A stretch of 64,000 nt of DNA from positions 1 through 64,000 of the forward strand of contig JACPZK010000029.1 of assembly GCA_016195565.1 (NCBI GenBank). Reading direction: 5' to 3'. Of this stretch, positions 30,432 through 58,284 are shown piece by piece. The translations under genes were made by a program, and so were the position numbers. Below the pieces are notes generated by a model that saw only the letters and a list, made by a program, of their open reading frames with translations, was not told the origin of the DNA and ran no database searches. The DNA is from Nitrospirota bacterium. Lineage in GTDB: Bacteria > Nitrospirota > Thermodesulfovibrionia > Thermodesulfovibrionales > UBA1546. The stretch's first letter is position 1. Every line of letters begins with the position of its first letter.

Positions 30432-30484
30432 GAAGGAAATGTGTTGAAATAAAAGGATTATTTATTGGGGATGGAACAACTTAC

Positions 30485-31856: not shown

Positions 31857-31876
31857 TGTGTCCCTCTCCTGCAATA

Positions 31877-31906: not shown

Positions 31907-31933
31907 CAATTGTGACCACAAATATGCAAACTA

Positions 31934-33262: not shown

Positions 33263-34815
33263 GACCCTTTTGGCAGGGTTATTGTAAATACAGTGCCCTT
33301 GCCGTCCTCGCTTTTCACGTCGATCCTTCCATTATGTTTTTTTATTATACTGTAAACAATCGCAAGTCCCAAACCCGTGCCCCTGTCCTTTGTCGTAAAG
33401 AACGGGTCGAATATGCGCGGGATATCAGACATGGGAATGCCCTTGCCGGTATCAGATACCACAATTCTGACATCGTTATCCTGAGAATGAACATCTATAT
33501 TAAGCATCCCTTTAGCCTCCATCGCATCCCTTGCATTAGTGAAGAGATTTATAAAGAGCTGTTCCATCAGATGGCTGTCGGCTGACAGCTCTATTATATC
33601 CTCTGAAATAAAATCGCACTTCATCCCGTCAATTTCTCCTGATGCCTTCATCTGCTCAATCACATCTCTTATAATTTCTATGATATTAATCCTCTTGCGC
33701 TCAGGCGCCTTCTCCCTCGCAAATTCAAGAAGGTCGCTGACAATCCTTTTTACTCTGAGCGTCTGCGAAGATATATCGCCAACAGTCTCTTTAACTACCG
33801 CCGGACATATCTCATGGCCTATCTCCTCTGAGAGTATCTGGGCGGCAAGATAGATGTTGTTCAGCGGATTATTGAGCTCATGCGCGACGCCTGATGCAAG
33901 GGTTCCAATTGACGCGAGCTTCCTGCTCTGGAGAAGCTCTTCATTCTTCCTGTTCAGTTCCTCGTCCCTTGCAATAAGGTCAGATTCCATCTTATTGAAT
34001 GTCTTTATGAGCACGCCTACCTCATCCTGTTTTTCAGGAACAGGAAGGGCTAAAAAATCTCCTTTGCCTGTCTTTTCAATCGCTGCTGTAAGGATCTTAA
34101 GTCGCTTGACAATGCTGTGGCTTATCGCAAAAAGCGCCGCAAGTCCGACAATCAAAAACAGCGGGAATAATACCAGCGCAGCTGTCTGGGAAAGGCTTAT
34201 TGCCCTTTCTGCTTTCTCCCTTGCCGACTTGTCGAGGTCTTTTGAGAGCGTTAATATCTCCTCGCCGTTTTTCCTAAGACTGGCAATCTCATCGTTCAAT
34301 TCCATTAATTCCGTTATAACAGGGCTGCTTACTTTTGGAGAGAATATCTTTTTAATTAGTTCTGCATTTACAAGCGGCCTTTCGAGGAATGTGGATTCTA
34401 TCAAGGGGAAGAACAAAGAATATTCCTTTCCCAGCGGTTTAAGCCCTGCGAAATCCTTCAAAAAATCCCGATAAATAACCTCTATCCTGTTGAACCTCCG
34501 GCTGTATTCATCAATCTTGTTTTCGAGGCCGAGGGGTTTTTCCGTGTTATAACTCTTTCTCCCCTGTTCGAGGGTCGTCTTCAGGTCTCTGAGATATGTA
34601 TGCACCTCTTCAATCTCTTTTGAATCTCCATAAAGGAAAAAGTTCTTCTCATGCCTTCTCAACTGAAGGGATTTGCTCCGGACAGTATCAGCAAGTTCAA
34701 GATAGCGGATCTCCTTTCTCACTTCCAGAAAATTCACATATGATGAGACCGTAAAAATGGCAATAATCGTTGCGCTTATGACAAAACTGAGAATTATCTT
34801 TCGTTCAAGGGACAT
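33259..34815 (-). CDS. Membrane sensor histidine kinase (copy A)
   Basis: 518 aa. Two transmembrane helices (about 9-27 and 208-230) flank an all-helical periplasmic sensor. HAMP (about 231-285), the phospho-His box GVAHELNNPLNNIYLA, and HATPase motifs (NARDAM, DTGKGIP, TTKDRGTGLGLAIV) follow. It phosphorylates the NtrC-type partner encoded just downstream. It has the same length and layout as the kinase at 53403-54959, evidence of a duplicated pair. Confidence 0.95.
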   Translation of the reverse strand: MSLERKIILSFVISATIIAIFTVSSYVNFLEVRKEIRYLELADTVRSKSLQLRRHEKNFFLYGDSKEIEEVHTYLRDLKTTLEQGRKSYNTEKPLGLENKIDEYSRRFNRIEVIYRDFLKDFAGLKPLGKEYSLFFPLIESTFLERPLVNAELIKKIFSPKVSSPVITELMELNDEIASLRKNGEEILTLSKDLDKSAREKAERAISLSQTAALVLFPLFLIVGLAALFAISHSIVKRLKILTAAIEKTGKGDFLALPVPEKQDEVGVLIKTFNKMESDLIARDEELNRKNEELLQSRKLASIGTLASGVAHELNNPLNNIYLAAQILSEEIGHEICPAVVKETVGDISSQTLRVKRIVSDLLEFAREKAPERKRINIIEIIRDVIEQMKASGEIDGMKCDFISEDIIELSADSHLMEQLFINLFTNARDAMEAKGMLNIDVHSQDNDVRIVVSDTGKGIPMSDIPRIFDPFFTTKDRGTGLGLAIVYSIIKKHNGRIDVKSEDGKGTVFTITLPKGS

Positions 34816-42976: not shown

Positions 42977-45547
42977 CTATAGTTTATAATTCTCCTCCAG
43001 AAAATTCTCCGTATACCGCTTAACAGCGCTGTCATCATGAAGCAATGCATCCATTTGCCTTGTATAGGCAATGAGCCTTCCCAGCTGGTCAAGTATGTTC
43101 ACCATCTCGTCCCTTCCTATATTGGCGAGTCTTGCGATTATGAGATCGCCTTTAGTTTTTATACTAAAACCGTATTCCTTCAAAATATCCGCTATAAGCT
43201 GGATCCTTCTTGACCTCTTCGTGATATCTGTTGCGCCTCCGGCAAAGCGGAAGTATATGTGATTGTTCCTCTGATTCTCACTGCAATAGGAATCTATCAG
43301 ATTGAAATGATACCCGAATCTCAGACCCATATTCAGATATTCCTTCGATGCGATTGCGATGTGCTGGCTGCTGAAATTCGCACTCCCCGAGACTATATCA
43401 TCCATCCTCATCATGCTTGTAAAGAAATCCCCTACCTTTAGCGGGATAGGATCAGAATGCCATACCCCGGGATGCAGCATTCCTTTTATAATTGCCCTGA
43501 GCGGAATGGATGTAATCTCCTCGTATGTGGCATTTCTCTTGTCCGGCTTTATGTCCAGCCCTCCGCCAATGTCAATCACCACAATCCCTGTGGGTATCGG
43601 CAGGTCTAACTTCACAGGATGGCGGCCCTTTAATCCATACCTCGCACCCTCGACAAGTTCTGTAACAGCTTTTTCGTGTATAAATCTCAAGATGTCATGC
43701 ATGGTCTTACATCCCTCAATTGTAAAACTATCCATCATAGGGTCAACGAGATTCAAAGGTGAAATGTACCTGAGGATATAGCGTTTTTTACGGAATTCAT
43801 AGATGTCCTCCATGCGCCTGAAAGTTAAATCGGCATACTCAAGAAGTTCACCGATAATGCCTTCGTATATCACATTCTTTCCATCATCGTCTATATACAG
43901 TGTGATTTCCTGACCGTGTTTGAGAATACCGGTTGCATTCCCTGTATTAACGATTGTCGGGATTCTGAATTCCCTGCATAGAGATGCCATGTGGCTTGTG
44001 GGTGTCCCCGTATCAGTTACGATTGCAGATATATAAGGCATAACCTTAACAAAATTTGAGGAGTCATGTTTCGACACAAGGACAGCCGCTTTTGGAACTC
44101 TGTCCAATTCATCTGCCTGTTTTAAGATGAAGACCCTGCCGGCGGCAACGCCCTTCTGTATTGCGATACCTTTGTCCTTCATTAGCACTTTGTCATTGCG
44201 AGATGGAGGCGAAGCAATCTCTGTTGATTGCAAAGATTGCTTCGTTGCTTCGCTCCTCGCAATGACATCGCGTGTTTCTACCACCTTCAATGGTCTTGAT
44301 TGAAGGATGGATATCCTTCCACCCTTGTCAATTGCCCATTCAATATCCTGAGGTCCCCTGAAGTGTTTCTCTGTAAGCATTGCCAGTCTTGCAAGTTCCA
44401 AAACCTGTTCTTCGGAAAGACAGGGTTTGTCCCTTATTGCATCTGGAGTCTTAACCTTCTTTGTCCCTCCATCTTTTTGATTGATGATCATGGATTCCTT
44501 TCTGCCCGTTTTCTCATCAATTATTTCAGGAGTGAGTACCTTCCTTACCGCATAAAAATCTGCATCCACTTCACCCTCAACTATGGATCTACCGAGTCCC
44601 CATGTTGCATTTATTATCATGGCATCATCTCTGTGTGGATTGGTTGAATAAATAATTCCACTGGACACTGCATCCACCATAACCATACATCCGACTGCCA
44701 TTTTGAAATTGCTGATGTCATAGCCAAGTTGCTTCATATAAATCACTGCTTTTTCTGAAAACAGGCTGGCAATGACCTTCTTGTATGCCTCCTCAACAGC
44801 GCCGCCTTCCAAAGGCACATTCAAAACGGTCTCGAATTGTCCTGCAAAGGAAAACTCTCTGTCTTCTTCCTCTGCACTGCTCCTCACGGCAAGGAAACAG
44901 TCTCCTCCGCATCTCTTTCTTATCTCCTCAAGGGCTTTACCAATAGCAATCTCAAGGTCAGGTAGAATCTCTGAGTTGATAATTGAATCCTGCAATTCCT
45001 TGAGTTTTGATTCTGCTGTATTAACATCAATGGCATTTATGCTTTCTTGTAGATTATTGTGTTTTATAAATTCATCAAAGGCATGAGTTGTTACGGAAAA
45101 GGCTTCAGGCACATTGAGTTTCAGATAATTCTTTAACTCGGATAGGTTTGCGTTCTTGCCACCGACAACGGGATATTTATCCCACGGGATATTCTCATAG
45201 AAAATGACCATCTCATCTGTTGATTGGATTCTGCCGTTAAGCGCTCCTCTTATCTGCCCGTCAATGCGGTTGAATGTTTCATGCAGTTGTGAGTAACTAT
45301 TTTGTGTAAGCATGTCAAAGCCCTGCAGCGAATCTTTGACGGCAGCTGTCAACTCTGAATATGCTCCCTTAATGTAGTTGATGTCAAAGAGGTAATCTCC
45401 GCTGAGCTTTTCCCCCATATCGGTAATAATCTCCAGCGCCCTCGTGTTATTTTTAAGCACGTCCTTGAAGCGTTCAAAAAGAACATTAAAGGGCAGTCCC
45501 CTTTTATGTCCGAAAAGGGATTTTAAATCCTCTATAACCTTTATCAT
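42977..45547 (-). CDS. PEP synthase/PPDK-like protein with non-canonical C-terminal domain
   Basis: 856 aa. Residues ~1-105 are helical. Residues ~110-420 are the ATP-grasp PPDK/PEP-synthase N domain (KYPVVGGKNANLSELKNYL, AVRSSAEEEDREFSFAGQFE, DIEWAIDKGGRISILQSRPL). Residues ~450-570 are the phosphohistidine swivel domain with TSHMA in TDTGTPTSHMASLCREFRIP. The C-terminal ~280 residues (e.g. IVVIDIGGGLDIKP, GYHFNLIDSYCSENQRNNHI) do not resemble the PEP/pyruvate TIM barrel. It probably transfers phosphate from ATP to His, but the final acceptor is unknown. A 75-bp palindrome adds VIARSEATKQSLQ... (about residues 428-452) between the domains. Coupled to a receiver and a kinase gene. Confidence 0.82.
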   Translation of the reverse strand: MIKVIEDLKSLFGHKRGLPFNVLFERFKDVLKNNTRALEIITDMGEKLSGDYLFDINYIKGAYSELTAAVKDSLQGFDMLTQNSYSQLHETFNRIDGQIRGALNGRIQSTDEMVIFYENIPWDKYPVVGGKNANLSELKNYLKLNVPEAFSVTTHAFDEFIKHNNLQESINAIDVNTAESKLKELQDSIINSEILPDLEIAIGKALEEIRKRCGGDCFLAVRSSAEEEDREFSFAGQFETVLNVPLEGGAVEEAYKKVIASLFSEKAVIYMKQLGYDISNFKMAVGCMVMVDAVSSGIIYSTNPHRDDAMIINATWGLGRSIVEGEVDADFYAVRKVLTPEIIDEKTGRKESMIINQKDGGTKKVKTPDAIRDKPCLSEEQVLELARLAMLTEKHFRGPQDIEWAIDKGGRISILQSRPLKVVETRDVIARSEATKQSLQSTEIASPPSRNDKVLMKDKGIAIQKGVAAGRVFILKQADELDRVPKAAVLVSKHDSSNFVKVMPYISAIVTDTGTPTSHMASLCREFRIPTIVNTGNATGILKHGQEITLYIDDDGKNVIYEGIIGELLEYADLTFRRMEDIYEFRKKRYILRYISPLNLVDPMMDSFTIEGCKTMHDILRFIHEKAVTELVEGARYGLKGRHPVKLDLPIPTGIVVIDIGGGLDIKPDKRNATYEEITSIPLRAIIKGMLHPGVWHSDPIPLKVGDFFTSMMRMDDIVSGSANFSSQHIAIASKEYLNMGLRFGYHFNLIDSYCSENQRNNHIYFRFAGGATDITKRSRRIQLIADILKEYGFSIKTKGDLIIARLANIGRDEMVNILDQLGRLIAYTRQMDALLHDDSAVKRYTENFLEENYKL
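44192..44266. repeat. 75-bp palindromic element inside the PEP-synthase-like gene
   Basis: Outer arms GTCATTGCGAG / CTCGCAATGAC and inner GAAGCAATCT / AGATTGCTTC. The length is exactly 25 codons and the frame stays open across it. Same family as 713-789. Confidence 0.9.
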
Positions 45548-45915
45548 TTCTTCTTGCTCAATGCCCGCTGTATGGATGTCTTCAATTCCTTTATCTTCAC
45601 AGGCTTTGGGAAAAAATCATGCACCTTTCCCCTCAGCGCCTCTATAGCTGTATCAAGATTGGCAAAAGCAGTAATCATTATGACATCGGTTTCCGGATAC
45701 AAATTCTTTACAGTTCTTAAGACATCCATGCCGTCTATGCCCTTCATCTTGTAGTCTGTAACAACCACATCAAACCTTCCCTCTTTCAATCTCGCAAGGG
45801 CAGGTTCTGCATTCAGGAATGTCTCCACAATATAGCCTTCCTGTTCGAGGGACATCTTTGCCATATCGCAGACTATCTTTTCATCGTCTATAACCATAAC
45901 CCTATACTGGTTCAT
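45544..45915 (-). CDS. Single-domain response regulator
   Basis: 123 aa, a receiver domain only (phospho-Asp in VVVTDYKMKGIDGMDVL, conserved Lys in FFPKPVKIKEL). There is no output domain, so it probably acts by protein contact. It overlaps both neighbours by 4 bp: the kinase upstream and the PEP-synthase-like gene downstream. This strongly suggests a three-protein unit in which the receiver may control the phosphotransferase. Confidence 0.92.
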   Translation of the reverse strand: MNQYRVMVIDDEKIVCDMAKMSLEQEGYIVETFLNAEPALARLKEGRFDVVVTDYKMKGIDGMDVLRTVKNLYPETDVIMITAFANLDTAIEALRGKVHDFFPKPVKIKELKTSIQRALSKKK

Positions 45916-47342
45916 TTGACCTCCTCGCGGATTAGTGCATCGCCGACTTCAGTGTAAACAGGCAACTCTATGGTAAAGGTTGTGCCTTCGCCGATCCAGC
46001 TTTCGACCCTGATATCGCCCTTATGGTTTTTGATTATGCCGTAACTGACCGATAAACCGAGTCCTGTCCCGCCTTCCCCCTTTGTTGTGAAAAACGGATC
46101 GAAGACATGCGGCAGAAATTCCGGGGGTATCCCTTTCCCGTTATCCGTAACGTCAACCTCTACAAATCCCTTTCGAACTCCTTTCCGCGAGAATATGAAC
46201 AGACTGCCGCCGTGTGGCATTGCATGAAGCGCATTTGTGATGAGGTTTACAAGCACCTGCTGTATCTGATGCGCATCGATGAAAACAGACGGGAGCCCGT
46301 CTTCAAGGTTTGTCTTTGCATCGACGTTGGCGACATCTATCATGTTCTGCATAAGATTCAAAGTCTTCCGTACCACGACGTTGATGTCCGCCTGCTTCAG
46401 GTTAGCCTCTTTAGGCCGTGAGAAATCCAGCAGGTTCCTGACGATTTTTTTTATCCTTTCGGTCTCTGCATCAATCTTTTTCATGAAGTCGATTCTCTGA
46501 TCTTCCGTCAGGGACCGATAAAGCTCGTCGTATGTCTGGGCGATCATGGATATGTTGTTCAGGGGGTTGGTAAGTTCATGCGCCACGCCCGCGGTAAGGA
46601 CGCCGAGGGAGGCGAGTTTTTTTGATTGGATTATCTGTTCCTCGCGGTTTCTAAGTTCCTCAGACATGGTGTTAATAGCGCTGATAACCGAGCCGAACTC
46701 ATCCTTGCTCCTTATCCCCGGTATTGTCGCAAATTTGCCCTCGGTTATCGACGCCGCCAGAGTTTCTATCTTCTTTAGCGACTTCAGTATCCGCTGTGAA
46801 ATAAAATGGCTTACGGCTATTGCAAAGGCAAGCACAACCCAGAAAGAGGAAAACAGAATTTTCTTTGAACCCTCAATAATCTCGTTAACACGCTTCCTTT
46901 CAAGTTTCGTCATGGATTCTGAGAATTCCCTGAGTTTCTTGCCGGCGTCCCTGAGCCTCAGTTCCATCTGTACGTCCCTGTTATTGCCGTTCTGTCGGAC
47001 CTCACCGATCAATGCGGAATATCTATTCAGATGTGACTTCAGAGTATTAATATCTGCCTCTCCAATCGCCTTGACGATATCTGCTTTTACCTGCTCTATG
47101 GAAGCCGTGGTTTGATCTATCTTCTCTTTGATCTCGTCAAGCGCAGTCCTGTCATTATAAAGAAAGTAGTTCTTCTCGGAAAGTCGCATCTCCAGAAATG
47201 CCGTATTCATATCGTCGGCTATTTCGACAAACTTGAGCTTTGTAAGAATGAGATTCAGGTTCTGGAATGCAAAAAATCCTATCAGTAAAATCAGGGCGAC
47301 ATTAAAAATATTGTAAAGTATGATTTTTCGTTCTATCTTCAT
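45912..47342 (-). CDS. Membrane sensor histidine kinase (third, divergent)
   Basis: 476 aa. Two transmembrane helices (about 8-26 and 165-185), a helical periplasmic domain, HAMP, the His box GVAHELTNPLNNISMIAQT, and ATPase motifs NALHAM, DNGKGIP and GGTGLGLSVSY. It is more divergent than the 518-aa pair. Its partner is the single-domain receiver. Lies 3 bp after a TSUP gene. Confidence 0.94.
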   Translation of the reverse strand: MKIERKIILYNIFNVALILLIGFFAFQNLNLILTKLKFVEIADDMNTAFLEMRLSEKNYFLYNDRTALDEIKEKIDQTTASIEQVKADIVKAIGEADINTLKSHLNRYSALIGEVRQNGNNRDVQMELRLRDAGKKLREFSESMTKLERKRVNEIIEGSKKILFSSFWVVLAFAIAVSHFISQRILKSLKKIETLAASITEGKFATIPGIRSKDEFGSVISAINTMSEELRNREEQIIQSKKLASLGVLTAGVAHELTNPLNNISMIAQTYDELYRSLTEDQRIDFMKKIDAETERIKKIVRNLLDFSRPKEANLKQADINVVVRKTLNLMQNMIDVANVDAKTNLEDGLPSVFIDAHQIQQVLVNLITNALHAMPHGGSLFIFSRKGVRKGFVEVDVTDNGKGIPPEFLPHVFDPFFTTKGEGGTGLGLSVSYGIIKNHKGDIRVESWIGEGTTFTIELPVYTEVGDALIREEVK

Positions 47343-47345: not shown

Positions 47346-48254
47346 TCAATTACCGCCTAAAAGTATGGACGGTCTCAGGACAAGCTGAAGGGTCATCTGA
47401 ACAGCCACCAAGAGGAGTATGAATGCAAGAAACAGTTTCAGATGTTCTCCCTTCAATTTCCTTCCAAAGACCACACCTATCTGGGTTCCGATTGTGGACC
47501 CCATGAGCAGGAGCACAGCAAGTATAAAGTCCACCGAATGGTTGGTATATGCCTGAAGAAAAGTGACCTCTATGGATGTAAATAAAATTATGAATAGACT
47601 TGTCCCTATCACAACGTGCAAGGGCATTCTCAACATATATACCATCACGGGAATCATCAGGAATCCGCCGCCAACACCCATTATGCCGGCCAAGATTCCT
47701 ACAACCACTCCGAGCAAGATGGGAACCAGCAGAGAATGACTAATGCCTGACTTTTCAAAATATGTCTGGAGCGGAAGGTTTTTAAGAAAAACCGCCAATC
47801 CTGACTCTTTTTCTACATGTTCTACGGCCATTTTTTTTCTCTTTAGCTTTGAAAGGGTTTCAGAGAGCATGTATATGCCCACGATCCCGAGTAAAAGCAC
47901 GTAGGTTACTTTTATCACAAAGTCCGCATTGCCCAGTATATTCAGGATGTTAAGGGCTTCTGCCCCTATAAACCCTCCAAAGAAACTTCCACCGAGAAGA
48001 CACCATCCCATCTTGAGATCCACATTGCCGAGCTTATGGTGTGCATAGGCGCCGGAGGTCGCCGACCCCACCATCATATTAGTACCTGTGGCGACAGAAA
48101 CAGTGGGTGATATGCCCAGCATCATAAGCAGCGGTGTAATTAACCATCCGCCGCCTACACCAAACAATCCGGTAAGTATTCCCACAATCAACCCAATCCC
48201 TATTGTGATAAGACTGTTGACGCTGGTTAAAGCAACGGGTAAGTAGAGATGCAT
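47346..48254 (-). CDS. TauE/SafE (TSUP) permease, copy 2
   Basis: 302 aa, eight transmembrane helices. The internal repeats are VGILTGLFGVGGGWLITPLLMMLG and VGILAGIMGVGGGFLMIPVMVYML. It is clearly paralogous to the TSUP at 50394-51311 (same length, and shared QAYTNHSVDFILAVLLLMGS region). It exports anions, perhaps sulfite or sulfur-containing organic acids. The substrate is not readable. Confidence 0.9.
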   Translation of the reverse strand: MHLYLPVALTSVNSLITIGIGLIVGILTGLFGVGGGWLITPLLMMLGISPTVSVATGTNMMVGSATSGAYAHHKLGNVDLKMGWCLLGGSFFGGFIGAEALNILNILGNADFVIKVTYVLLLGIVGIYMLSETLSKLKRKKMAVEHVEKESGLAVFLKNLPLQTYFEKSGISHSLLVPILLGVVVGILAGIMGVGGGFLMIPVMVYMLRMPLHVVIGTSLFIILFTSIEVTFLQAYTNHSVDFILAVLLLMGSTIGTQIGVVFGRKLKGEHLKLFLAFILLLVAVQMTLQLVLRPSILLGGN

Positions 48255-48278: not shown

Positions 48279-48704
48279 CTAATTATGACTGACCACCAAC
48301 ACAGGGCAGGGGGCATTGTGGATGACCTTTTCAATTGTATTGCCGCCGAAAATCTTTAACAGGCGCTTTTTCTTTTTCTGAGAGCCGAGAATAATGAGGT
48401 CGCATCTTTCCTCTTCAGCGACTTCTATAATATTTTTAGGCGCATCTCCTTCTTCAAGCCTCGTTTTGATGAGCGTTCTTTCAGCCTCCGCAATATCCTG
48501 AAACTCTGATACCGCTCTATTACCCCCGCTGTCAAGGACATCTCCGATATTCCTGATGCCGGTAAGGTTAAGCTCTCCCTCATTCGGAGGGATGACTTTA
48601 ACGACTGTCACCCAGCATTGCTCGTCTCCGGCAAGTTTCAGCCCCTCGGCAAGAACATTCTTTGATCCGTTTACCGCTATCAGTATTTTTCTATATCCTT
48701 TCAT
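48279..48704 (-). CDS. Universal stress protein, single domain
   Basis: 141 aa from the ATG at 48704 (MKGYRKILIAVNGSKN); the open frame extends to 48797 inside the neighbouring gene, but the Usp domain begins here. The G-x2-G-type ATP signature is degraded (LGSQKKKKRLLKIFGGNTIE), so ATP binding is doubtful. It ends NAPCPVLVVSHN. 5 bp after another Usp gene. Confidence 0.88.
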   Translation of the reverse strand: MKGYRKILIAVNGSKNVLAEGLKLAGDEQCWVTVVKVIPPNEGELNLTGIRNIGDVLDSGGNRAVSEFQDIAEAERTLIKTRLEEGDAPKNIIEVAEEERCDLIILGSQKKKKRLLKIFGGNTIEKVIHNAPCPVLVVSHN

Positions 48705-48709
48705 CTGTT

Positions 48710-49567
48710 TTATTTCACCGCAAGCACCGGACATTTGGCATTCATTATTACCCTTTCCGTTGTGCTCCCCATAATCGCCTTGCTCACCCCGCGCCATCCG
48801 TACGTTCCGATGACAATGAGGTCGTTTTTCAGGCCTGATGATACCTTGACTATCTCTTCAGAAGGGCTGCCCTCCCTGATTTCTGTTTTGACGGTAATGC
48901 CCTGCGCAGATGCAATAGACTGAGCGGTATTGAGTATCTTTTCCGCTTCCTGCATCATGCTTTTTCGTATTGATGAGGTCATGAAAAACTCCACCATCTC
49001 CTCATACCGGGGCATTGAATAGAGGACTGTAACCTCAGAAGAGTCTATTGCCGATAACTGACAGGCTCTTGTGAGTGCGGTCTTGCTGAATTCCGAGCCG
49101 TCAAAAGGGACGAGAATAGATTTATAGGTGCCTGTACATTCTGTGCATGGTTTCTTCACCACTAAGACATCAACTTTTGAATTCACTATCACCCGTGAGG
49201 TCACACTCCCCATAAGCAGCCTGTTGAGTCCCCGCCTGCCATATGTCCCCATGACGATGAGGTCTGCGTTCTTCCCTTCAGCAACATCAAGAATAACCTC
49301 AGGCGCTTCTCCTTCGCAGAGGAGCGAATCAGCTTCTATGCCGAACTCCGAAACTATTTTCTCTTTTGTCTCCTGACAGAGTTTCCCTCCGATTTTCAGG
49401 CGCTTCTCCTGCTGTTCCGGAGCAATGCCGAATTCTTCGGTATCGAAGAAGACAGCGCGGGCAAGGAATAGTTTTCCGCCGTGCCTTTTAACCCAATTAG
49501 CAGCCTCAATTAGCGCTGCCTTGCTGTATTTCGAATCGTCATAGCCGACTAATAGTGTTTTATACAT
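48710..49567 (-). CDS. Tandem-domain universal stress protein
   Basis: 285 aa, two Usp domains. Domain 1 starts YKTLLVGYDDSKYSKAALIE and has GTYGRRGLNRLLMGSVTSRV. Domain 2 starts YKSILVPFDGSEFS and has GTYGWRGVSKAIMGSTTERV. Both carry near-complete nucleotide-binding signatures. The CTEC pair between the domains (KKPCTECTGTY) could be redox-active. In the nine-gene operon. Confidence 0.92.
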   Translation of the reverse strand: MYKTLLVGYDDSKYSKAALIEAANWVKRHGGKLFLARAVFFDTEEFGIAPEQQEKRLKIGGKLCQETKEKIVSEFGIEADSLLCEGEAPEVILDVAEGKNADLIVMGTYGRRGLNRLLMGSVTSRVIVNSKVDVLVVKKPCTECTGTYKSILVPFDGSEFSKTALTRACQLSAIDSSEVTVLYSMPRYEEMVEFFMTSSIRKSMMQEAEKILNTAQSIASAQGITVKTEIREGSPSEEIVKVSSGLKNDLIVIGTYGWRGVSKAIMGSTTERVIMNAKCPVLAVK

Positions 49568-49569: not shown

Positions 49570-50394
49570 TTAATGCGCGCCTCCGCCTTTTCTGAAGACC
49601 ATGCCGACACCGAAGCCTGCACCCAGCGCCGCAACTATGGATATGATTCCGTATAAAACGCCGTTGTTTTTCGCCATACCTGCTAAACTCTTTACAATGC
49701 CTACCTGTTCTACAAGCACGCTTGATTGTGCAGTCTCAGCAACTTTCCCATTTTTTACTGCATACACAGTAACCGTATAAGTCCCAGGAGGCGCCTGATA
49801 AGGCCACTGGGTAAGGATGTAGTATTTCCTTTTTCCGCCCTCATGGCTGAATGATATTTTCCCTGAAGACATTGCGTAGAGTTTTGAATCCTCTTTAAAC
49901 TTCACAAACTCTTCAAACCATTTTGTTTTATCCGACTCATTGGCAACAGGGCTCATTCCCACATGTTTTTCGAGCGCAGGATACCCGATAACATACTTCT
50001 CCATTTCATCCTTGTTTAATATATCCTCGATTTTTTTAGTACTGTGAAGGGCATAGAAGTTCGGTACATGCTCAAGATTCAATGTCCCTACATTCATCCA
50101 CAAGAACCCTGCCGCTTTGCCTTTTTCCTTCATCACTTGATGCCCTTCCGGAGAGGTGATTTTAACGATTAGGTCAACATCCTGATTAGATATTCCGCTC
50201 GCACTTACCGTACTGCCATGATAGAAGAAGTCTATTGTGATATGGTCGTGATTTGCGTTAATCGTAAGTTCTGCCGATGCATTATCTGCAAATGTAAAAT
50301 TAAAAATTAAAAATTCAAAAATAAGGAATACCAAAATTTTGAATTTTGCACTTTGCATTTTGAATCTTGAATTTTGAATCTTGAATTTTTTCAT
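49570..50394 (-). CDS. TIGR02186-type membrane-anchored protein
   Basis: 274 aa. The N-terminus is built from heptamer repeats (KKFKIQNSRFKMQSAKFKI) followed by a hydrophobic signal core. A periplasmic beta-rich domain (DHITIDFFYHGSTVSASG, WMNVGTLNLEHVPNFYALHS) matches the Alph_Pro_TM/TIGR02186 family as I know it. A C-terminal transmembrane helix (GIISIVAALGAGFGVGMVF) completes it. These proteins commonly accompany TSUP permeases; here the start overlaps the TSUP stop behind GGAGG. Possibly an accessory subunit. Confidence 0.78.
   Translation of the reverse strand: MKKFKIQNSRFKMQSAKFKILVFLIFEFLIFNFTFADNASAELTINANHDHITIDFFYHGSTVSASGISNQDVDLIVKITSPEGHQVMKEKGKAAGFLWMNVGTLNLEHVPNFYALHSTKKIEDILNKDEMEKYVIGYPALEKHVGMSPVANESDKTKWFEEFVKFKEDSKLYAMSSGKISFSHEGGKRKYYILTQWPYQAPPGTYTVTVYAVKNGKVAETAQSSVLVEQVGIVKSLAGMAKNNGVLYGIISIVAALGAGFGVGMVFRKGGGAH
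50296..50394. repeat. Heptanucleotide arrays at the start of the TIGR02186-type gene
   Basis: Two arrays of AATTTTG/AATCTTG/AAATTAA-type 7-bp units lie at about 50296-50320 and 50338-50394. They encode the positively charged start and part of the hydrophobic signal core of the protein. Confidence 0.8.
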
Positions 50395-51311
50395 TAGTGT
50401 CCTCCAGCCTGAGACAAAAGCAGGGAAGGCGCCATAGTAAGTTCAAAGATTATCTTTACGGTAACAACAAGTACAATAACCGCAAGGATAATCTTGAGCT
50501 GCTCGCCTTTAAGCTTTCTTCCGAAAACAGCGCCGACCTGCGCCCCTATGGTAGAGCCAAGGAGTAAAAGCACTGCAAGCACGAAATCAACATTGTGGTT
50601 TGTGTATGCCTGAAGAAAGGTGACCTCTATACAATTAAAAAGAATCTGGAAAAGGCTCGTGCCTACGACAACGTGCATCGGCATCCTCAGAATATAGACC
50701 ATGACCGGCACCATCAGAAAGCCGCCGCCAACGCCCATGATAGCGGCAAGCACCCCAACAAAGCCTCCAAAGACAATCGGTATTAAAGCAGAATGGGTAA
50801 CTCCTGATTTTTCATAACGTGTCTTAAGCGGCAAAGACTTGAGTAAACGGGCAACGCCCGATTCTTTCTCGGATTTTGCGTCTTCAGCCTTGTTTTTCTT
50901 CATGCTCTGAATGCTCTCAACAAACATGTATGCTCCTGCAATGCCAAGCATCAGGACATAGGTCATTTTTATAACAAAGTCGGCATTCCCCATCTCCTTG
51001 AGTATCTTTATTGCCTGAACGCCAAAGAGACCGCCGATGAAACCGCCGATGAGTAAGTGAAAACCCATTTTAAAATCCACGTTGCCGACCTTCCAGTGGG
51101 CGTATGTGCCTGATGTGGAAGCGGCGACAATCTGGTTTGAGTCTGTAGCCGCTGCAACTGTTGCAGGAATGCCTAACATAATAAGGAGCGGGGTCATCAG
51201 AAAGCCGCCGCCAACACCAAACAGCCCTGATAGCAGACCTACCACCAATCCAAGCCCGATAGGGATGATAATGTTAATACTTGTTAATGCTACGGGTAAA
51301 TACAGATACAT
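50394..51311 (-). CDS. TauE/SafE (TSUP) permease, copy 3
   Basis: 305 aa, eight transmembrane helices. Repeats GLLSGLFGVGGGFLMTPLLIMLG and GVLAAIMGVGGGFLMVPVMVYIL. Close paralogue of copy 2, including the QAYTNHNVDFVLAVLLLLGS end region. Two TSUP paralogues in one operon may form a heteromer or handle two substrates. Followed directly by the TIGR02186-type gene. Confidence 0.9.
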   Translation of the reverse strand: MYLYLPVALTSINIIIPIGLGLVVGLLSGLFGVGGGFLMTPLLIMLGIPATVAAATDSNQIVAASTSGTYAHWKVGNVDFKMGFHLLIGGFIGGLFGVQAIKILKEMGNADFVIKMTYVLMLGIAGAYMFVESIQSMKKNKAEDAKSEKESGVARLLKSLPLKTRYEKSGVTHSALIPIVFGGFVGVLAAIMGVGGGFLMVPVMVYILRMPMHVVVGTSLFQILFNCIEVTFLQAYTNHNVDFVLAVLLLLGSTIGAQVGAVFGRKLKGEQLKIILAVIVLVVTVKIIFELTMAPSLLLSQAGGH

Positions 51312-51336
51312 TCAGACAACCTCCCTTTATTAAATT

Positions 51337-51810
51337 TCATGCGTGCTGCAATTCCTGTTTTGCTATAGTCACTACAGGCCGTGAAGCAGTTTTTACAAGT
51401 CTTTGCAGTTCTCTTGCAGACATATTTCCGTTTTTCGTAATGCTCGGGCTTAAAAGCACCATGTCAACAGCAGTTTTGTTCTTAAGAAAACCGCTTATAG
51501 CCCCGACAATGCCGTCTTGTGCTGTTTGCAGATTCGCCTCAATGCCCGATGTTTTACACTGATCAATCATGCGGTTTGATTGTCCTTCCGGATTTTCTCT
51601 CCGCATAACTTCCCTTGCAGTCTCATACTCGCTTTCCTCTGCAAAGGCTACAGCAGTCATGATGTCTTCGAACCTTTCTTCAAGCCTCTCCTTGTTGACC
51701 AGCAGTATCGTAATGCCGTCCTCAAGGGTCTGTGCGAGGTCAATTGCATAGGTCAAACCCTCATCACGATCCTCATTTTGATAGGTAACGAATAAAAGCT
51801 GTTTTTTCAC
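51337..51810 (-). CDS. UspA-like protein with FAEE...ETARE segment
   Basis: 157 aa. KQLLFVTYQNEDRDEGLTYA and the end VVTIAKQEL show a Usp-like frame without the ATP signature. The middle contains RFEDIMTAVAFAEESEYETA (then REVM), shared with 29676-29867 and 29885-30367. First gene of the nine-gene operon and directly downstream of a sigma-54-type promoter. Confidence 0.7.
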   Translation of the reverse strand: MKKQLLFVTYQNEDRDEGLTYAIDLAQTLEDGITILLVNKERLEERFEDIMTAVAFAEESEYETAREVMRRENPEGQSNRMIDQCKTSGIEANLQTAQDGIVGAISGFLKNKTAVDMVLLSPSITKNGNMSARELQRLVKTASRPVVTIAKQELQHA

Positions 51811-51848
51811 CGCGGCTCCCTCCTTCTATTGATTCTCGGGGATTATTA

Positions 51849-51864
51849 AGCATAAGGGATGCCA
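51849..51864 (-). promoter_or_regulatory. Sigma-54 (-24/-12) promoter of the nine-gene operon
   Basis: The minus strand reads TGGCAT-CCCTT-ATGCT, matching TGGCAC-N5-TTGCW with two mismatches and the correct GG/GC spacing. It lies about 39 bp before the UspA-like start and just downstream of a kinase/NtrC gene pair. Confidence 0.65.
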
Positions 51865-51910
51865 GATGTAACACTTTGATAAATAAGGATAAATTAATGA
51901 GGCAAATGAT

Positions 51911-52025
51911 TGTGTTTAGAATATGAACAGATGGGATGATGCAGATACTAAAAGATAACTCCTTGAATTAAAAAGATATTTCTGACAGGAATGGAAACGA
52001 GGCTATGTGTTTAGAATATGAACAG
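51911..52025. promoter_or_regulatory. Duplicated 20-bp activator site (putative NtrC-type enhancer)
   Basis: An identical 20-mer, TGTGTTTAGAATATGAACAG, occurs at 51911-51930 and 52006-52025, 95 bp apart (about nine helical turns). Each holds a TGTT-N9-AACA dyad. They lie about 50 and 145 bp upstream of the sigma-54 promoter, the usual range for enhancer sites. Binding by the regulator encoded next door (52034-53371) is inferred. Confidence 0.6.
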
Positions 52026-52033
52026 TGTAAACA

Positions 52034-53371
52034 CTATTCTTCCTTCAATATCTTCCAGAGACTCGTTCTTGATATGCCAAGCGCTTCAGCAGCCTTTGAG
52101 CGGTTCCCTCCGAGCATCTTCACGACCTTTTCAACATACTCTTTAACAAGCTCGTCGATAGTCAGTACCTTGTCGGGATCAATAGTGTCGATCTGGAGAA
52201 CACGGATAGCTCTCGGCAGGCTTTCAGGTGTGATAAGCCCGGTTTTTTCAAGTATGATTGCCCTCTCAATAATATTTTCAAGCTCCCTTACATTGCCGGG
52301 GAAACTGTAGTTTATGAGAATATGCATCGCATCATCAGTAAATCCGGCAATCTTTTTGCTGGACTTCGGAAGATGTTTTTTGAGAAAGAAATAACTGAGA
52401 GGCTTGATATCATCTATCCTCTCTCTCAAAGGAGGTATATATATTTCCATTATGTTGAGCCGATAATAAAGGTCTTCCCGGAATCTGCCTTCCGAGATAA
52501 GCCTTTTAACATTCTGGTTAGTGGCCGCAATAAACCTCGCATCAACTTTAATCGGTCTTGTTCCTCCAACCCGATAGAACTCTCCTTCTTCAACGACTTT
52601 AAGAAGCTTTGCCTGCAGGTTCGTCGGCAGCTCGGCAATCTCGTCAAGAAAAAGAGTGCCCGTGTCCGCAATCTCGACAAGCCCCTGCTTTGTTGAAACC
52701 GCGCCTGTAAAAGCGCCCCTTTCGTAACCAAATAGCTCGCTCGCAAGCAGTTCTTCCGTGAAAGTCGCGCAGTTAATAGATAGGAAGGGCATATTCTGCC
52801 GCTTGCCGGTAAAGTGGATTGCTTTTGCAATGAGGCTTTTGCCCACGCCTGTCTCACCGGTCAGCAGAATATTGACATCTGAACCTTTCAGTTCCTCAAC
52901 CCTCTCAAGAATGCGTCTCATGCCTTCGCTCCTGGCAATAATAGATATCTTTTTATCCATGCCTACAAAGGTGCGTAAGGCGATGTTTTCTTTTTTGAGG
53001 CTCCTCTGCTGAAAGATCTTTCCGGCTTTCAGCAGAAGTTCGTCAAGGTCAAAAGGCTTGGTAATATAATCAACAGCGCCTTTTTTCATAGCTTCGACAG
53101 CTGAACTGATACTGCCGAATCCGGTAATGATAATCACTTCTGTTTCAGGATGATGGACTCTTACTTTATCAAGCAACTCTATCCCGCTCATGCCAGGCAT
53201 TTTAATATCGGTGATAAGGACATCAAAATGGTCTTTCTCTATCACCTGAAGGGCCTCGGTTCCATTTCTGGAATAAGCGACTTTATAACCCTCTTCCTGA
53301 AGGGTGTCAACAATATTGTTGAGCGTAATCTCTTCGTCTTCAGCTACGAGTATTTTAAACGCCATAATCAA
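52034..53371 (-). CDS. NtrC-family sigma-54-dependent response regulator (copy B)
   Basis: 445 aa. Receiver (VLITDIKMPGMSGIELLDKV), AAA+ domain with GETGVGKS, GAFTGA and GTLFLDEIAEL, and C-terminal Fis helix-turn-helix GGNRSKAAEALGISRTSLWKILKE. It is strongly similar throughout to copy A at 31934-33262; the DNA-recognition helices are almost identical, so the two may share sites. It follows its kinase gene by 31 bp and ends next to the duplicated 20-mers. Confidence 0.95.
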   Translation of the reverse strand: MIMAFKILVAEDEEITLNNIVDTLQEEGYKVAYSRNGTEALQVIEKDHFDVLITDIKMPGMSGIELLDKVRVHHPETEVIIITGFGSISSAVEAMKKGAVDYITKPFDLDELLLKAGKIFQQRSLKKENIALRTFVGMDKKISIIARSEGMRRILERVEELKGSDVNILLTGETGVGKSLIAKAIHFTGKRQNMPFLSINCATFTEELLASELFGYERGAFTGAVSTKQGLVEIADTGTLFLDEIAELPTNLQAKLLKVVEEGEFYRVGGTRPIKVDARFIAATNQNVKRLISEGRFREDLYYRLNIMEIYIPPLRERIDDIKPLSYFFLKKHLPKSSKKIAGFTDDAMHILINYSFPGNVRELENIIERAIILEKTGLITPESLPRAIRVLQIDTIDPDKVLTIDELVKEYVEKVVKMLGGNRSKAAEALGISRTSLWKILKEE

Positions 53372-53402
53372 TAATTCCTTTCATGCTGTAAAACAAACCC
53401 AA

Positions 53403-54959
53403 TCATACTTTACCTGCTGATTTGGGCAGTGTGATGATGAATGTCGTTCCACTGCCTTCTTCGCTTTCAACTGTTATCTCTCCTTTATGTTTCTGAATAA
53501 TATTGAAAACTATTGCAAGTCCTAATCCGGTGCCTTTGTCTTTTGTTGTATAGAAGGGCTCGAAAATTTTCTCTACTGCTTCTTGTGAAATGCCGCGCCC
53601 TGTATCAGACAGTCTAATCCTGATATTTGCATCTTCTTCAACGGCTCTCACAATGATACTCCCCTCGCCTGAAACAGCATCTATGGCGTTGGATATGAGA
53701 TTGATAAAAACCCTCTCCATCTGCTCCTGATCTGCGTAGATGACAATTTCTTCGGGATGGAACTCAAGATGAAACCTGATGCTGTCAATAGACCTTGAAC
53801 CCCCGATGTGCTTATAGACCCCGTTTACAAGGCTGCGCAATTCAACCGGCCTGAGATTGGGCTCTCTTCCCCTTGCAAATTCAAGGAGGTCGCTCACAAT
53901 GCTTTTAACCCGCATGGTCTGCCCGAATATATCATCAAGCCCCTTCTTAATAAATGCAGGGCACTCATCTTCTGATTTCTTCAATAGCCTCTGCGCGGTC
54001 GTATAAATGTTATTCAACGGGTTGTTGAGCTCATGTGCAACGCCGGATGCAAGAGTGCCAATCGCCGCAAGCTTTTTGCTCTGGAGGAGTTCTTTTTCCC
54101 TCTGAATTAATTGCTCCTCCATCGAGTTAAATTTTTGTATGAGCACACCGACTTCATCATTGTCACCCCACCTCAGCCTGCCGACTGACATCTTTGAGAA
54201 ATCGCCGCCGCCGGTTCTTTCAACAACTGTGGTTAACAAGTTTAGTCTTTTGACTACATTGCCTGTCACATACAGGAACGCCCCTCCTCCCGCAATAAGA
54301 AACACTGTGAAAAATATCAGTATGGCTATCTGTGATCTGCGGATAAAGCCATCAACCTTTTCTCTCGCTATCTTGTCCAGTTCCTTTGACATTACAAGAA
54401 TTTCTTCACCATCCTTCCTGAGTGTGCGTATCTCGGAATCAAGCTCATAAAGGTTTCTGATTGCCGGGTTATTTTTTTTGAGGTGAAAAATGTTTTCAAT
54501 GAGTTCTGCATTGACAAGCGGCCTTTCGAGAAATGTAGTCTCGATTATCCTGAAAAAAATGGAGTATTGCATGTGAAAGGGCTTAATTCTGCCGAACTCG
54601 TTCCTGAAATCATAAACAATCTTTTCTATATGATTAAACCTCCGGCTGTATTCATCAATTTTTTTCCTGAGGCTTAAAAGGCCTCCGGTGCTGTCCGGAT
54701 ACCTGTTTTCCGCCAAAATATCGTCCAATTGTTTCAGGTAATCACGAACACTTTTGACTTCATTCAGATCACCAGTAAGAAAAAAGTTCTTTTCGTGCCT
54801 CCTTAACTGAAGCGACTTGCTACTGATTGTATCAGTGGTCTCAAGAAAGACTATCTCTTTCTTTATCTGTATGAAGTTTATATACTCAAAAGCCGCAAGC
54901 ACGGCAATTATAAAGGCGCTTGTCAAAAAGCTCAGGATTATCTTCTTTTTCAGGGACAT
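53403..54959 (-). CDS. Membrane sensor histidine kinase (copy B)
   Basis: 518 aa with the same layout as copy A: a transmembrane helix, an all-helical periplasmic sensor, a second transmembrane helix, HAMP, the His box GVAHELNNPLNNIYTTAQR, and ATPase motifs NAIDAV, DTGRGIS and TTKDKGTGLGLAIV. Shared sensor motifs with copy A (KSLQLRRHEKNFF and TTFLERPLVNAELI) show a common origin. The signal is unknown. Confidence 0.95.
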   Translation of the reverse strand: MSLKKKIILSFLTSAFIIAVLAAFEYINFIQIKKEIVFLETTDTISSKSLQLRRHEKNFFLTGDLNEVKSVRDYLKQLDDILAENRYPDSTGGLLSLRKKIDEYSRRFNHIEKIVYDFRNEFGRIKPFHMQYSIFFRIIETTFLERPLVNAELIENIFHLKKNNPAIRNLYELDSEIRTLRKDGEEILVMSKELDKIAREKVDGFIRRSQIAILIFFTVFLIAGGGAFLYVTGNVVKRLNLLTTVVERTGGGDFSKMSVGRLRWGDNDEVGVLIQKFNSMEEQLIQREKELLQSKKLAAIGTLASGVAHELNNPLNNIYTTAQRLLKKSEDECPAFIKKGLDDIFGQTMRVKSIVSDLLEFARGREPNLRPVELRSLVNGVYKHIGGSRSIDSIRFHLEFHPEEIVIYADQEQMERVFINLISNAIDAVSGEGSIIVRAVEEDANIRIRLSDTGRGISQEAVEKIFEPFYTTKDKGTGLGLAIVFNIIQKHKGEITVESEEGSGTTFIITLPKSAGKV

Positions 54960-55346
54960 ACTGCCCTATATTATCACCAATGAATTGAAAAATGAAAATG
55001 CCCTCTGCGGACAGTCGGGCATATAAGTATTCTTTCAGAAAAATGGGGAAACTGGAAACACTACAGAAAGATTAAAGGGTTAGTCTTCTTCGGCTCGAAA
55101 ATAAATCTGCAAAAGTAAACTGCTAAGCGCTTCCACTACTTTGAACTATTTGCCTTAACCCATTCACCTATTCACCTGTCTTTCTTCCCTTCCGAAGTTC
55201 TCGCAGCATCAGCAAAGAGCCGCCCCAGCACTTTTCGAAGCGTAAGAGAAGAGTCGCCCGTGGCGACTGCACTTCTGAACTTTTTAATTGTTGCTAATGT
55301 GGGAAGTGGCGTTTGACTATACCCCAATCTATTTCGGGCATATGAG

Positions 55347-55375
55347 TTGACTAATATTGTCCAATGATGTATAGT
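55347..55375 (+). promoter_or_regulatory. Promoter of the HTH-methyltransferase gene
   Basis: TTGACT (55347-55352) and TATAGT (55370-55375) are 17 bp apart; transcription would start near 55382, so translation should start at the ATG 55393. A second TTGACTA copy at 55314-55320 and the nearby dyads could bind the HTH domain of the encoded protein. The rest of 55027-55340 has no gene; a small hairpin GTCGCC-CGT-GGCGAC is at about 55254-55268. Confidence 0.65.
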
Positions 55376-55392
55376 TTATGGTGAGGTCCGGT

Positions 55393-57003
55393 ATGAACAA
55401 ACCAACAACGATTGAAATGCTCAATACAAAACAAACAGCCTTGCTTTTAGGGGTTAGTCCTAAAACAATTTACCGCATGGAAGAAAAAGGGCTGATTCAA
55501 TCTATTAGAACGCCAGGCGGTCAGCGCAGATTCAATAGGGAAGATTTACAGAATTATTTAAACGCAAGCAAATCATTTACTGCCCCTCAAAATCCGAGCA
55601 AATATAAAACTTCCGCCAATCTGTCCCCTTCTTTTGTAAAAGAAAAAGCTGCTGGATACTCTCTTTTTGAGCCATCTGAAATTGATATATCATCATCTGT
55701 CTCAAGATTACAGCAGCAAATAGCATTGAAAAATATCAGAAGCCACAAACAGCATTACGACACCGGCACGGATATATTCAGATGGATAGAGGAATGGGAC
55801 TTTAAAAGCTACCGAACTAAAACCTATACGCATGGATTCCACACTTATCCCGCAATGTTCATACCGCAGGTCGCCCGAAAGCTGATAGAAGTCTTTTCAT
55901 CCGAGCATGATACTGTTTGCGACATATTCTGCGGTTCCGGCACCACCCTTGTTGAAAGCAGCCTTTTGAACAGAAATTCCATAGGCATTGAATTAAACCC
56001 TTTAGCTGTTCTGATTGCAAAGGTCAAAACCACGCCTATCGACCCACAGACCCTAACTAACAATCTAAAAACAATTTTAACTGGCTATGAAAATGTAAAA
56101 AATATTGCACCTCCAAAATTTAATAATATAGACTTCTGGTTTTCTGAAGCAGTCATTAAAGACCTTGCAAAACTCAAGCAGGCAATATGGAATATCTCAG
56201 AAGAAAATATCAGGAATTTCTTTGCAGTATGTTTCAGTGAAGTTGTAAGGATTGTTTCTTTTACGAGGCATAAGGAATTTAAACTATTCAGGGATAAAGC
56301 TAAATTAGAAAAATCTTTTAAGCCGGATGTTCTGGGCGAGTTTATAAGGATGTGTGAAAATAACATTTTGGGAATGAAGGAATACATCCATGATGTTATG
56401 CCTAATACCAATGTAAAAATCATACTCGGCGACTCAACAAAAGATAACGGCATTCCTCCGGAATCTGTAGATTTCATCATAACTTCACCGCCATATGGCG
56501 ACAGTAGAACCACCGTAGCTTATGGACAATTTTCGCGGCTGCCAGCCCAATGGCTGGATTTATTGCCTCCGCAGGTCAAAGATATTGACAAAGAATTGCT
56601 TGGAGGCAAAAACAATGTGAGCATAAATGACCCTGCAATTGATTTATCAGACACTTTAAAATTTACTATAAAATTTATTTCAGAGAGAGATTCGGAGAGG
56701 GCAAAAGATGTTTTAAGTTTTTACAGGGACTTATATAAGGCGCTTATTCAGGCGCACAAGATTTTACGCCCTAAAAAATATTTTTGCCTAATTGTCGGCA
56801 ACAGAACCGTAAAAGAACTGGTATTAAAGACCGATGGGATAATCTGTGAGTTCGGAGAAAAAATCGGTTTTGTTTCTCAGGGCATTCTTTATAGAAATAT
56901 CCCTAACAAGAGGATGCCCCTTAAAAACAGTCCTACAAATGTGCCAGGCAAAACCGGATTTACAATGCAGAAAGAAAGTATCGTCTTGCTTAAAAAACTT
57001 TAA
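55393..57003 (+). CDS. DNA methyltransferase with N-terminal MerR/excisionase-like HTH
   Basis: 536 aa from ATG 55393; the frame also contains an ATG at 55378, which would lie upstream of the predicted transcript start. Residues ~8-55 form a MerR-like helix-turn-helix with wing (TKQTALLLGVSPKTIYRMEE, TPGGQRRFNREDLQNYL). The methyltransferase follows with DIFCGSGT (about 176) and TSPPYGDSRTTVAYGQFSRL (about 363). It is a beta-type, probably N4-cytosine, enzyme. The HTH may let the enzyme control its own promoter. It faces the restriction gene convergently, with 9 bp between stops. Confidence 0.88.
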   Translation: MNKPTTIEMLNTKQTALLLGVSPKTIYRMEEKGLIQSIRTPGGQRRFNREDLQNYLNASKSFTAPQNPSKYKTSANLSPSFVKEKAAGYSLFEPSEIDISSSVSRLQQQIALKNIRSHKQHYDTGTDIFRWIEEWDFKSYRTKTYTHGFHTYPAMFIPQVARKLIEVFSSEHDTVCDIFCGSGTTLVESSLLNRNSIGIELNPLAVLIAKVKTTPIDPQTLTNNLKTILTGYENVKNIAPPKFNNIDFWFSEAVIKDLAKLKQAIWNISEENIRNFFAVCFSEVVRIVSFTRHKEFKLFRDKAKLEKSFKPDVLGEFIRMCENNILGMKEYIHDVMPNTNVKIILGDSTKDNGIPPESVDFIITSPPYGDSRTTVAYGQFSRLPAQWLDLLPPQVKDIDKELLGGKNNVSINDPAIDLSDTLKFTIKFISERDSERAKDVLSFYRDLYKALIQAHKILRPKKYFCLIVGNRTVKELVLKTDGIICEFGEKIGFVSQGILYRNIPNKRMPLKNSPTNVPGKTGFTMQKESIVLLKKL

Positions 57004-57012
57004 CATTCAAAT

Positions 57013-57759
57013 TCAGCCATATACAGACTTCAAATCGTCTAAAATTTTTGAAAATTCATATACTGGCTTCTCCCACTCCCCTGGTTTGGTAATATAGACA
57101 AAATCAAAAAACTTTAACATCCCCTTCTGCTGTGGCTTCGTGATTTCGTTATAAAAATTAGTGGTGATAAAGCCGACTTTGAAGTTATCCATAGCCTTAT
57201 AAGTTAAGCCGTATTTCTCTTTTATGGTTTTGCAGTCATTAGAAGAGACAATATCCATCAGCAGTTTCCATCTATATGTTTGCCCTGCTCTTTCCCTTAA
57301 AGATGTCTTAATTGAGTATATTATCACAGGATATTTTTCGGCGTCTGGATGGTAATAAATAAGCAAATCAATATCCGGCTTTTGGACATCATCGCCTACT
57401 TTTATGGTGGCATATTTTTCTATCAATGGATGTTTTTTAGGTTTTAAGGTAATTGCAAGATTAGGGTTAAGCAGATTTTTTTCTTGAAGCTTAATTAAAG
57501 AATAAGCGACTAACCCCTGAAAGCCATTACCTGCAATAGTTTTTCTTGCCTGATCAGCGTTTGAAATTATGCCGTTCTTTATCCTATCTTGAATAAGTAT
57601 CTCCACTTTTGCAGTTGCGTTTTGCATTATTTCAGTCAGATAGTTCATGGCCTTTATATCCCCGATTACTTTGGCTTTTTCCTCAAGCCTTTCTTTTATC
57701 GGCGTGAAATAATACCTGCTTTCAATCTCTGATATGGTTTTTATATTTATATTAAGCAT
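57013..57759 (-). CDS. Type II restriction endonuclease, BsaWI-like (CCGG family)
   Basis: 248 aa. PD-(D/E)xK-type core: KPDIDLLIYY followed by PVIIYSIKTSLRERAGQTYR (S-x-K, then RER). The RER run after the catalytic Lys matches the motif used by CCGG-recognising enzymes (NgoMIV, Cfr10I, BsaWI) to read the site. I therefore infer a target with a CCGG core. The partner is the convergent methyltransferase. No separate C protein is present. Confidence 0.72.
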   Translation of the reverse strand: MLNINIKTISEIESRYYFTPIKERLEEKAKVIGDIKAMNYLTEIMQNATAKVEILIQDRIKNGIISNADQARKTIAGNGFQGLVAYSLIKLQEKNLLNPNLAITLKPKKHPLIEKYATIKVGDDVQKPDIDLLIYYHPDAEKYPVIIYSIKTSLRERAGQTYRWKLLMDIVSSNDCKTIKEKYGLTYKAMDNFKVGFITTNFYNEITKPQQKGMLKFFDFVYITKPGEWEKPVYEFSKILDDLKSVYG

Positions 57760-57942
57760 ATAAGTTTTTCCTCAAAGCAAAATCGTTTGTTGCTTAATAG
57801 TTACAAGAATACATGTTCACGTACCCCCTCGTCAAATACCTACCAAAGAAAACAAGAGATTCTATCCATGAAATGTGCAAAAGCGCACACAAACGCAAAC
57901 CACTGAAAGCTGAACAGATGCAAGTCTCGCACAACACAGCCT

Positions 57943-58284
57943 TTAGTCTCTTGTGTCCCCCTTAAGATAATCTCCAAGCAGCCCTCTGCTGTGCTCGTCG
58001 TCATGGCAATAGGCGCAGAGGTTCTCCCAGTTGGAGCCGTCAGGAGGATTGTTCCTGTTGTTGCCGTCTTTATGATGCACTGTGAGGAGTTGCCGGTCTT
58101 TGAAGTCAAACTCCCTTCCGCATTTGGCGCATATCAGGCCGTGGATTTTCAGGGATTGCTCCCTGTAATCGGAGACAGGGGCCTTGCCCTTTTTTAATTC
58201 CCTGACGATTTCAGCGGCGGTTTTGCCTGCTGCAGGCTTTTGCGGCAAGGGTTTTCTGAATTTCATTCGTTGTCTGCTTCCCAA
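57943..58284 (-). CDS. YajD-like HNH nuclease
   Basis: 113 aa. A TTG start with AGGAGGT 6 bp upstream. The zinc Cys pairs CAKC and CAYC bracket the HNH core TVHHKDGNNRNNPPDGSNWE. The family is found widely in proteobacteria; its target is unknown. It could be part of the mobile/defence cluster with the adjacent R-M system. 57760-57942 has no convincing gene. Confidence 0.85.
   Translation of the reverse strand: MGSRQRMKFRKPLPQKPAAGKTAAEIVRELKKGKAPVSDYREQSLKIHGLICAKCGREFDFKDRQLLTVHHKDGNNRNNPPDGSNWENLCAYCHDDEHSRGLLGDYLKGDTRD

Follow-up and report, generated by a model that had tools for sequence, protein, structure and literature searches.

What is the role of two identical 20-bp sequences in the 223-bp intergenic region between a two-component regulator gene and the operon that follows it in a Nitrospirota bacterium (UBA1546)? 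The window analyzed here is the whole 64,000-nucleotide stretch at positions 1 to 64,000 of contig JACPZK010000029.1 (GCA_016195565.1). In this window, TGTGTTTAGAATATGAACAG is present as two exact copies on the plus strand (51911-51930 and 52006-52025) that are 95 bp apart from start to start, just as a sequence-only reading of this DNA had described. That reading proposed an enhancer for a sigma-54 promoter next to an NtrC-type regulator gene, and set against it the possibility that the 20-mer is a general dispersed repeat. No third copy was found in the window (0 expected from shuffled windows) or, with up to three mismatches allowed, in the 2.3-Mb genome (33 contigs). Because the entire genome holds only the two copies, the dispersed-repeat alternative is ruled out.

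A duplicated dyad beside a two-component system

When read on the minus strand, the core of each 20-mer is the 17-bp dyad TGTTCATATTCTAAACA, which follows the pattern TGTTY-N7-RAACA and has half-sites spaced as TGT-N11-ACA. This dyad is the likely functional unit. Its two occurrences, both on the minus strand, unique, and conserved, are the proximal (51913-51929) and distal (52008-52024) candidate upstream activator sequences (UASs), and the distal dyad begins 9 bp beyond the stop codon of the regulator gene. A structured RNA at these sites was rejected because no Rfam family was found in positions 50000-55500. Likewise, a 10-nt inverted repeat that overlaps the site was not accepted as a hairpin because its arms are 109 nt apart.

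The gene order on the minus strand is histidine kinase, regulator, the intergenic region with the sites, and then the USP-like operon. The regulator (52034-53371) carries Response_reg, Sigma54_activat, and HTH_8 domains above the Pfam cut-offs, corresponding to a receiver, an AAA+ domain with a GAFTGA motif (read in the translation), and a Fis-type helix-turn-helix. It is thus an NtrC-family response regulator (bEBP) and a predicted activator, and its preferred start may be an ATG located two codons in. Its scores are below the NCBIfam equivalog cut-offs for AtoC (424/714 bits), ntrC (388.4/558.6 bits), and ZraR (355/760 bits), and also below that for NifA. The partner sensor kinase (53403-54959, minus strand) has HisKA and HATPase_c domains, and no Pfam family was matched in its sensor part.

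The genes past the sites, all on the minus strand, begin with a USP-like protein (51337-51810), an open reading frame that has no Pfam family and is related to the USP-like protein of a paralogous unit described below. These are followed by a TauE/SafE permease (50394-51311, PF01925), an Alph_Pro_TM protein (49570-50394, PF09608), a tandem Usp protein (48710-49567, PF00582), a Usp protein (48279-48797, PF00582), and a second TauE/SafE permease (47346-48254, PF01925) that is probably in the end part of the predicted operon. Genes for another histidine kinase, for a stand-alone receiver, and for a PPDK_N/PEP-utilizer protein lie at the operon end (42977-47342), and the match of the last of these to PEP synthase covers only the first part of that enzyme. 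Since the operon holds TauE/SafE permeases and Usp proteins, our guess is that it serves a stress or anion-export response.

A predicted sigma-54 promoter with two IHF-consensus boxes

The -24/-12 element claimed previously proved to be real. The sequence TGGCATCCCTTATGCT (51864-51849, minus strand) has correctly spaced GG and GC dinucleotides, is the sole mismatch-free match to TGGCAY-N5-WTGCW in the 64 kb, and is conserved in relatives. It sits 38 bp ahead of the GTG start (51810) of the USP-like gene. The gap between the 17-bp dyad and TGGC is 48 bp for the proximal copy and 143 bp for the distal copy, which agrees with the earlier estimates of ~50 and ~145 bp, and the dyad centres are at about -83 and -178 relative to the predicted start. 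Sigma-54 itself is encoded in the genome (PF04552 at C19:16531-17004, 208.8 bits). The locus combines a correctly spaced -24/-12 element and paired upstream dyads with a genomic sigma-54, which supports the prediction that the operon promoter is of the sigma-54-dependent, enhancer-activated kind.

Two additional elements, absent from the earlier description, were found in this region. Each dyad is followed by a predicted IHF box, such that the order is UAS-IHF-UAS-IHF-promoter. We used the E. coli IHF consensus WATCAANNNNTTR, which is quoted in PMC5963220 and is written WATCARxxxxTTR in PMC3897727, and matches were counted over nine positions. The proximal box TATCAAAGTGTTA (51869-51881, minus strand) lies between the UAS and the -24 element and matches at 9/9 positions, and the distal IHF-like box ATTCAAGGAGTTA (51956-51968, minus strand) matches at 8/9. 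When 43 composite promoters (dyad plus -24/-12 element) were aligned on TGGC, a second conserved block (approximately WWTCAANAAGTTA) was observed to start 17-18 bp before TGGC. This block fits the E. coli consensus and marks the fixed position of the proximal box. Scores of 9/9 were found for 15 of the 43 promoters compared to 0.4% of composition shuffles, and scores of at least 8/9 were found for 28 of the 43 compared to 6.8%. Similarly, when the best-matching box in the interval between the dyads was taken for each A-type locus (defined below), 21/22 scored 8-9 compared to ~9% of shuffles. In some relatives (L072 and L079), the proximal box is a weak one.

Specificity, conservation, and helical spacing

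Taken by itself, the loose dyad gave 24 genomic matches and its reversed control also gave 24, and thus a large regulon for this motif was rejected. When a -24/-12 element was required at a distance of 40-70 bp, exactly two matches remained in the genome and none remained for the reversed control. These composites belong to this operon and to a paralogous one, and so the genome scan that the sequence-only reading had suggested for defining a regulon yielded two promoters only, one at this regulator and the other at its nearest paralogue. There are 16 clear NtrC-type AAA+ proteins encoded in the genome. The regulators of the two units are mutually closest (64% identity, compared to 37-48% for the remaining proteins), and both carry the recognition helix SRTSLW[KR], which is absent from the other 14 of the 16. 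Because the composites occur only at the two closest regulators sharing this helix, the adjacent regulator is the best candidate currently available for binding the sites.

The paralogous unit lies within the window (27446-34815) and includes a kinase plus regulator (31934-34815, with the NtrC-family regulator at 31934-33262, minus strand) and USP-like, TauE, and Usp genes (27446-30382). It has its own single dyad, TGTTTAAACCTGAAACA (30485-30501, minus strand), and a -24/-12-like element, TGGCACGCCTCTTGGT (30416-30431, minus strand). The two units probably reflect an old duplication. Both co-occur in the relatives represented by L068, L081, and L083.

Sites of two types were distinguished. A-type sites (TGTTCATATTCTAAACA) have a gap of 48-50 bp to the promoter, and B-type sites (approximately TGTTYAAATNTGAAACA) have a gap of ~53 bp, and the main sequence difference between them is a T or a G at position 12. 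Which base is present there tracks gap length (Fisher p ~9e-4 for a hand-entered subset of 27 promoters, uncorrected for kinship). The recognition helices of the regulators (LWK or LWR) mostly change in step with site type, with L080 as an exception. Second dyads also are present in some B-type promoters (L026, L027, and L029), and a paired-site layout for this type was dropped because their spacing is inconsistent.

In a comparison of four congeners, 16/17 columns of each dyad are kept (94% invariant) compared to 51-55% of the spacer columns. A-type relatives carry two and sometimes three dyads plus a -24/-12 element upstream of the USP-like orthologue, and the last dyad starts 65-67 bp before TGGC. 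The gene order HK-RR-sites-USP-TauE-Alph_Pro_TM-Usp is found again in MAGs labelled Nitrospirae, and the sites are usually found directly past the regulator gene. In the loci where the regulator is not adjacent (L070, L071, L077, and L078), the dyads remain with the USP promoter. A search of 176 genomes from the order gave 91 matches to the composite compared to 19 for the control, and 58 of the 91 gaps are 48-54 bp (29 are exactly 53 bp). A stricter A-type pattern was found in 7 of 296 phylum genomes (control, 0), six of which are within the order, with the other representing another member of the class. This conservation of dyads, promoter, and distances together with the operon lends support to the proposed sigma-54 enhancer layout beside an NtrC-type regulator. 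Separately, both dyads and both IHF boxes are kept in L083 (6013-6200). The promoter there may be weakened because its -24 element reads AAGCAC rather than TGGCAC/T.

The 95-bp dyad interval corresponds to 9.05 turns at 10.5 bp per turn. In relatives, the dyad-to-dyad spacings are 93-96, 105-106, 116-118, and 126-130 bp. The distance from the start of the distal dyad to its IHF box is 46, 56-58, or 68-69 bp (20/22 A-type loci), and the distance from this box to the proximal dyad is 37-39, 47-49, or 59-61 bp. At 10.5 bp per turn, clustering by turn was observed for the dyad spacing (Rayleigh p ~7e-5 for 19 values and ~5e-3 for distinct values), the distal dyad-to-box distance (p ~2e-8), and the box-to-proximal-dyad distance (p ~5e-7, or ~3e-3 with distinct values), although the p-values of the larger sets are optimistic because the loci are related by descent. 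The distal-box candidates of L070 and L085 are outside the offset classes and were omitted from the box phase test. Helical repeats of 10.5 to 11 all fit the spacing data, and the 126-130 bp group, in which three loci carry a third dyad located 41 bp before the proximal copy (3.9 turns), has a poorer fit at 10.5. Insertions and deletions between the elements thus appear to have tended toward whole turns, as predicted for an enhancer with a fixed face. Given that distances in relatives shift in steps of about one turn, the earlier remark that the repeats are on the same helical face was right in substance. The third dyad in relatives is weaker, and examples are located at about 4320-4380 in L074 and at 13228-13285 in L071.

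Predicted mechanism, rival explanations, and known systems

We consider it very probable, judging from the DNA and its relatives, that the dyads are UASs of the sigma-54 promoter of the USP-like/TauE operon and that they are acted on by the adjacent regulator together with IHF. By analogy with known enhancers, we infer that the kinase (53403-54959) responds to its signal by phosphorylating the regulator (52034-53371), which would then bind both dyads on about the same helix face and assemble its AAA+ ring there. IHF would bind just downstream of each dyad and bend the DNA, and this bend would bring the activator to the sigma-54 RNA polymerase in a closed complex at TGGCATCCCTTATGCT. The activator would then open the polymerase through ATP hydrolysis. 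A more elaborate proposal, which we advance tentatively and with less than even confidence, is that every dyad is paired with an IHF bend site of its own, with distances kept in whole turns across the order, that the two UAS-IHF modules both fold onto a single polymerase, and that the K/R change in the recognition helix sets the specificity of the two paralogous systems.

The main rival, possible if rather unlikely, is that these sigma-54 enhancers are bound wholly or additionally by the paralogue (31934-33262), such that the two systems cross-regulate. This protein could be a second binder given its 64% identity and the same SRTSLW helix core, and TGTTY-N7-RAACA is common to A-type and B-type sites. 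Also, the paralogous D. vulgaris regulators DVU0539 and DVU0946 share one site (PMC3333781). However, A-type and B-type sites differ in position 12 and gap length, the paralogues' helices mostly differ in step (LWK or LWR), and A-type sites usually adjoin the A regulator. A similarly low probability is given to the view that the WATCAANNNNTTR boxes are contacts of HU, an intrinsic A/T-rich bend, or an upstream contact of the sigma-54 polymerase rather than IHF sites. The proximal box is indeed near the -24 element (17-18 bp) and inside an A/T-rich stretch, the genome encodes an HU-like protein, and A/T-rich curvature can substitute for IHF (PMC3897727). Against this, the 13-bp consensus is specific beyond A/T content as judged by the composition shuffles, and the distal dyad, which is remote from the promoter, also has a box after it. 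Furthermore, the genome encodes IHF-alpha (above the NCBI cut-off, NF001401) and an IHF-beta-like protein whose score of 107.8 bits is just below the cut-off of 115.

The two remaining explanations are far less probable. The dyads could be repressor operators, or could act on how the regulator transcript ends, with their position near the promoter being due to chance. A dyad by itself fits an activator or a repressor alike, and the distal copy closely follows the regulator stop codon. We nonetheless regard this explanation as very unlikely, since a terminator of the regulator operon was rejected (none is predicted at the distal dyad), the dyads are found with the USP promoter in loci where it is separated from the regulator gene, and an upstream position at a fixed distance to the -24 element is typical of activators. 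Finally, the identity of the 20-mers could reflect a recent, non-functional duplication, but this idea has almost no credence because the 95-bp interval around the dyads was not found to be duplicated and paired dyads persist across many genera despite altered spacers and spacings.

The enhancers used by NifA and NtrC, such as those of nifH and glnAp2, have an upstream UAS with IHF between the UAS and the promoter, and their looping depends on helical phase. The predicted layout of the region with the two dyads shares this arrangement with nifH and glnAp2. The NifA UAS is TGT-N10-ACA, whereas the sites here are TGT-N11-ACA and accompany a receiver-domain regulator, and so a NifA-type UAS was not accepted.

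The D. vulgaris orp1 and orp2 promoters, which use the EBP DVU2106 and IHF, have a palindromic EBP site (~-88), an IHF site (~-43), and a sigma-54 element in the same order (PMC3897727). For orp2, these are at -88, -43, and -11, respectively, IHF is needed experimentally, and orp activities are down 10-12-fold without it (PMC3897727). The proximal half of the region described here (~-83, -37, and -12, as located from sequence) has nearly the orp2 geometry. The orp1 promoter also has two candidate IHF boxes, both of them downstream of a single EBP site and ahead of the promoter (PMC3897727), whereas here each of two dyads has its own box. The orp systems also differ from this one in organism, regulator, and operon.

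Two studies of D. vulgaris NtrC-family regulons (PMC3333781, PMC4641369) describe two-component activators of sigma-54 promoters whose sites are palindromic and often adjoin the regulator gene. TSUP permeases are among the targets, including the permease operon downstream of DVU0110/DVUA0057. In D. vulgaris, three EBP motif groups have TGT/ACA half-sites separated by 9, 11, or 12 bp, and one to four operons are controlled by most of the EBPs (PMC4641369). By this description, one group has the 11-bp separation seen here. Paired UAS-IHF modules do not appear in the portions of these two papers that were available, and no paper describing such a layout, or sigma-54 regulation in Nitrospirota, was found in the openly accessible literature. 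We view this control region as one of a known and ordinary kind, seen here in an exceptionally clear duplicated layout. It is a modest variant in that its UAS-IHF module is doubled, conserved, and spaced in whole turns. With this analysis, a binding motif, a promoter, and a regulon of two operons are assigned to a Nitrospirota two-component system that is widespread, apparently uncharacterised, and known here mostly from metagenome-assembled genomes. The series of spacings in relatives, which differ by about one turn, amounts to a natural experiment on the helical-phase constraint of sigma-54 enhancers and IHF bends.

Elsewhere in the window (55378-58284), a DNA methyltransferase gene with a MerR-like helix-turn-helix is convergent with a gene for a homologue of BsaWI-type restriction endonucleases, with an HNH protein encoded nearby. 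This is a probable type II restriction-modification system.
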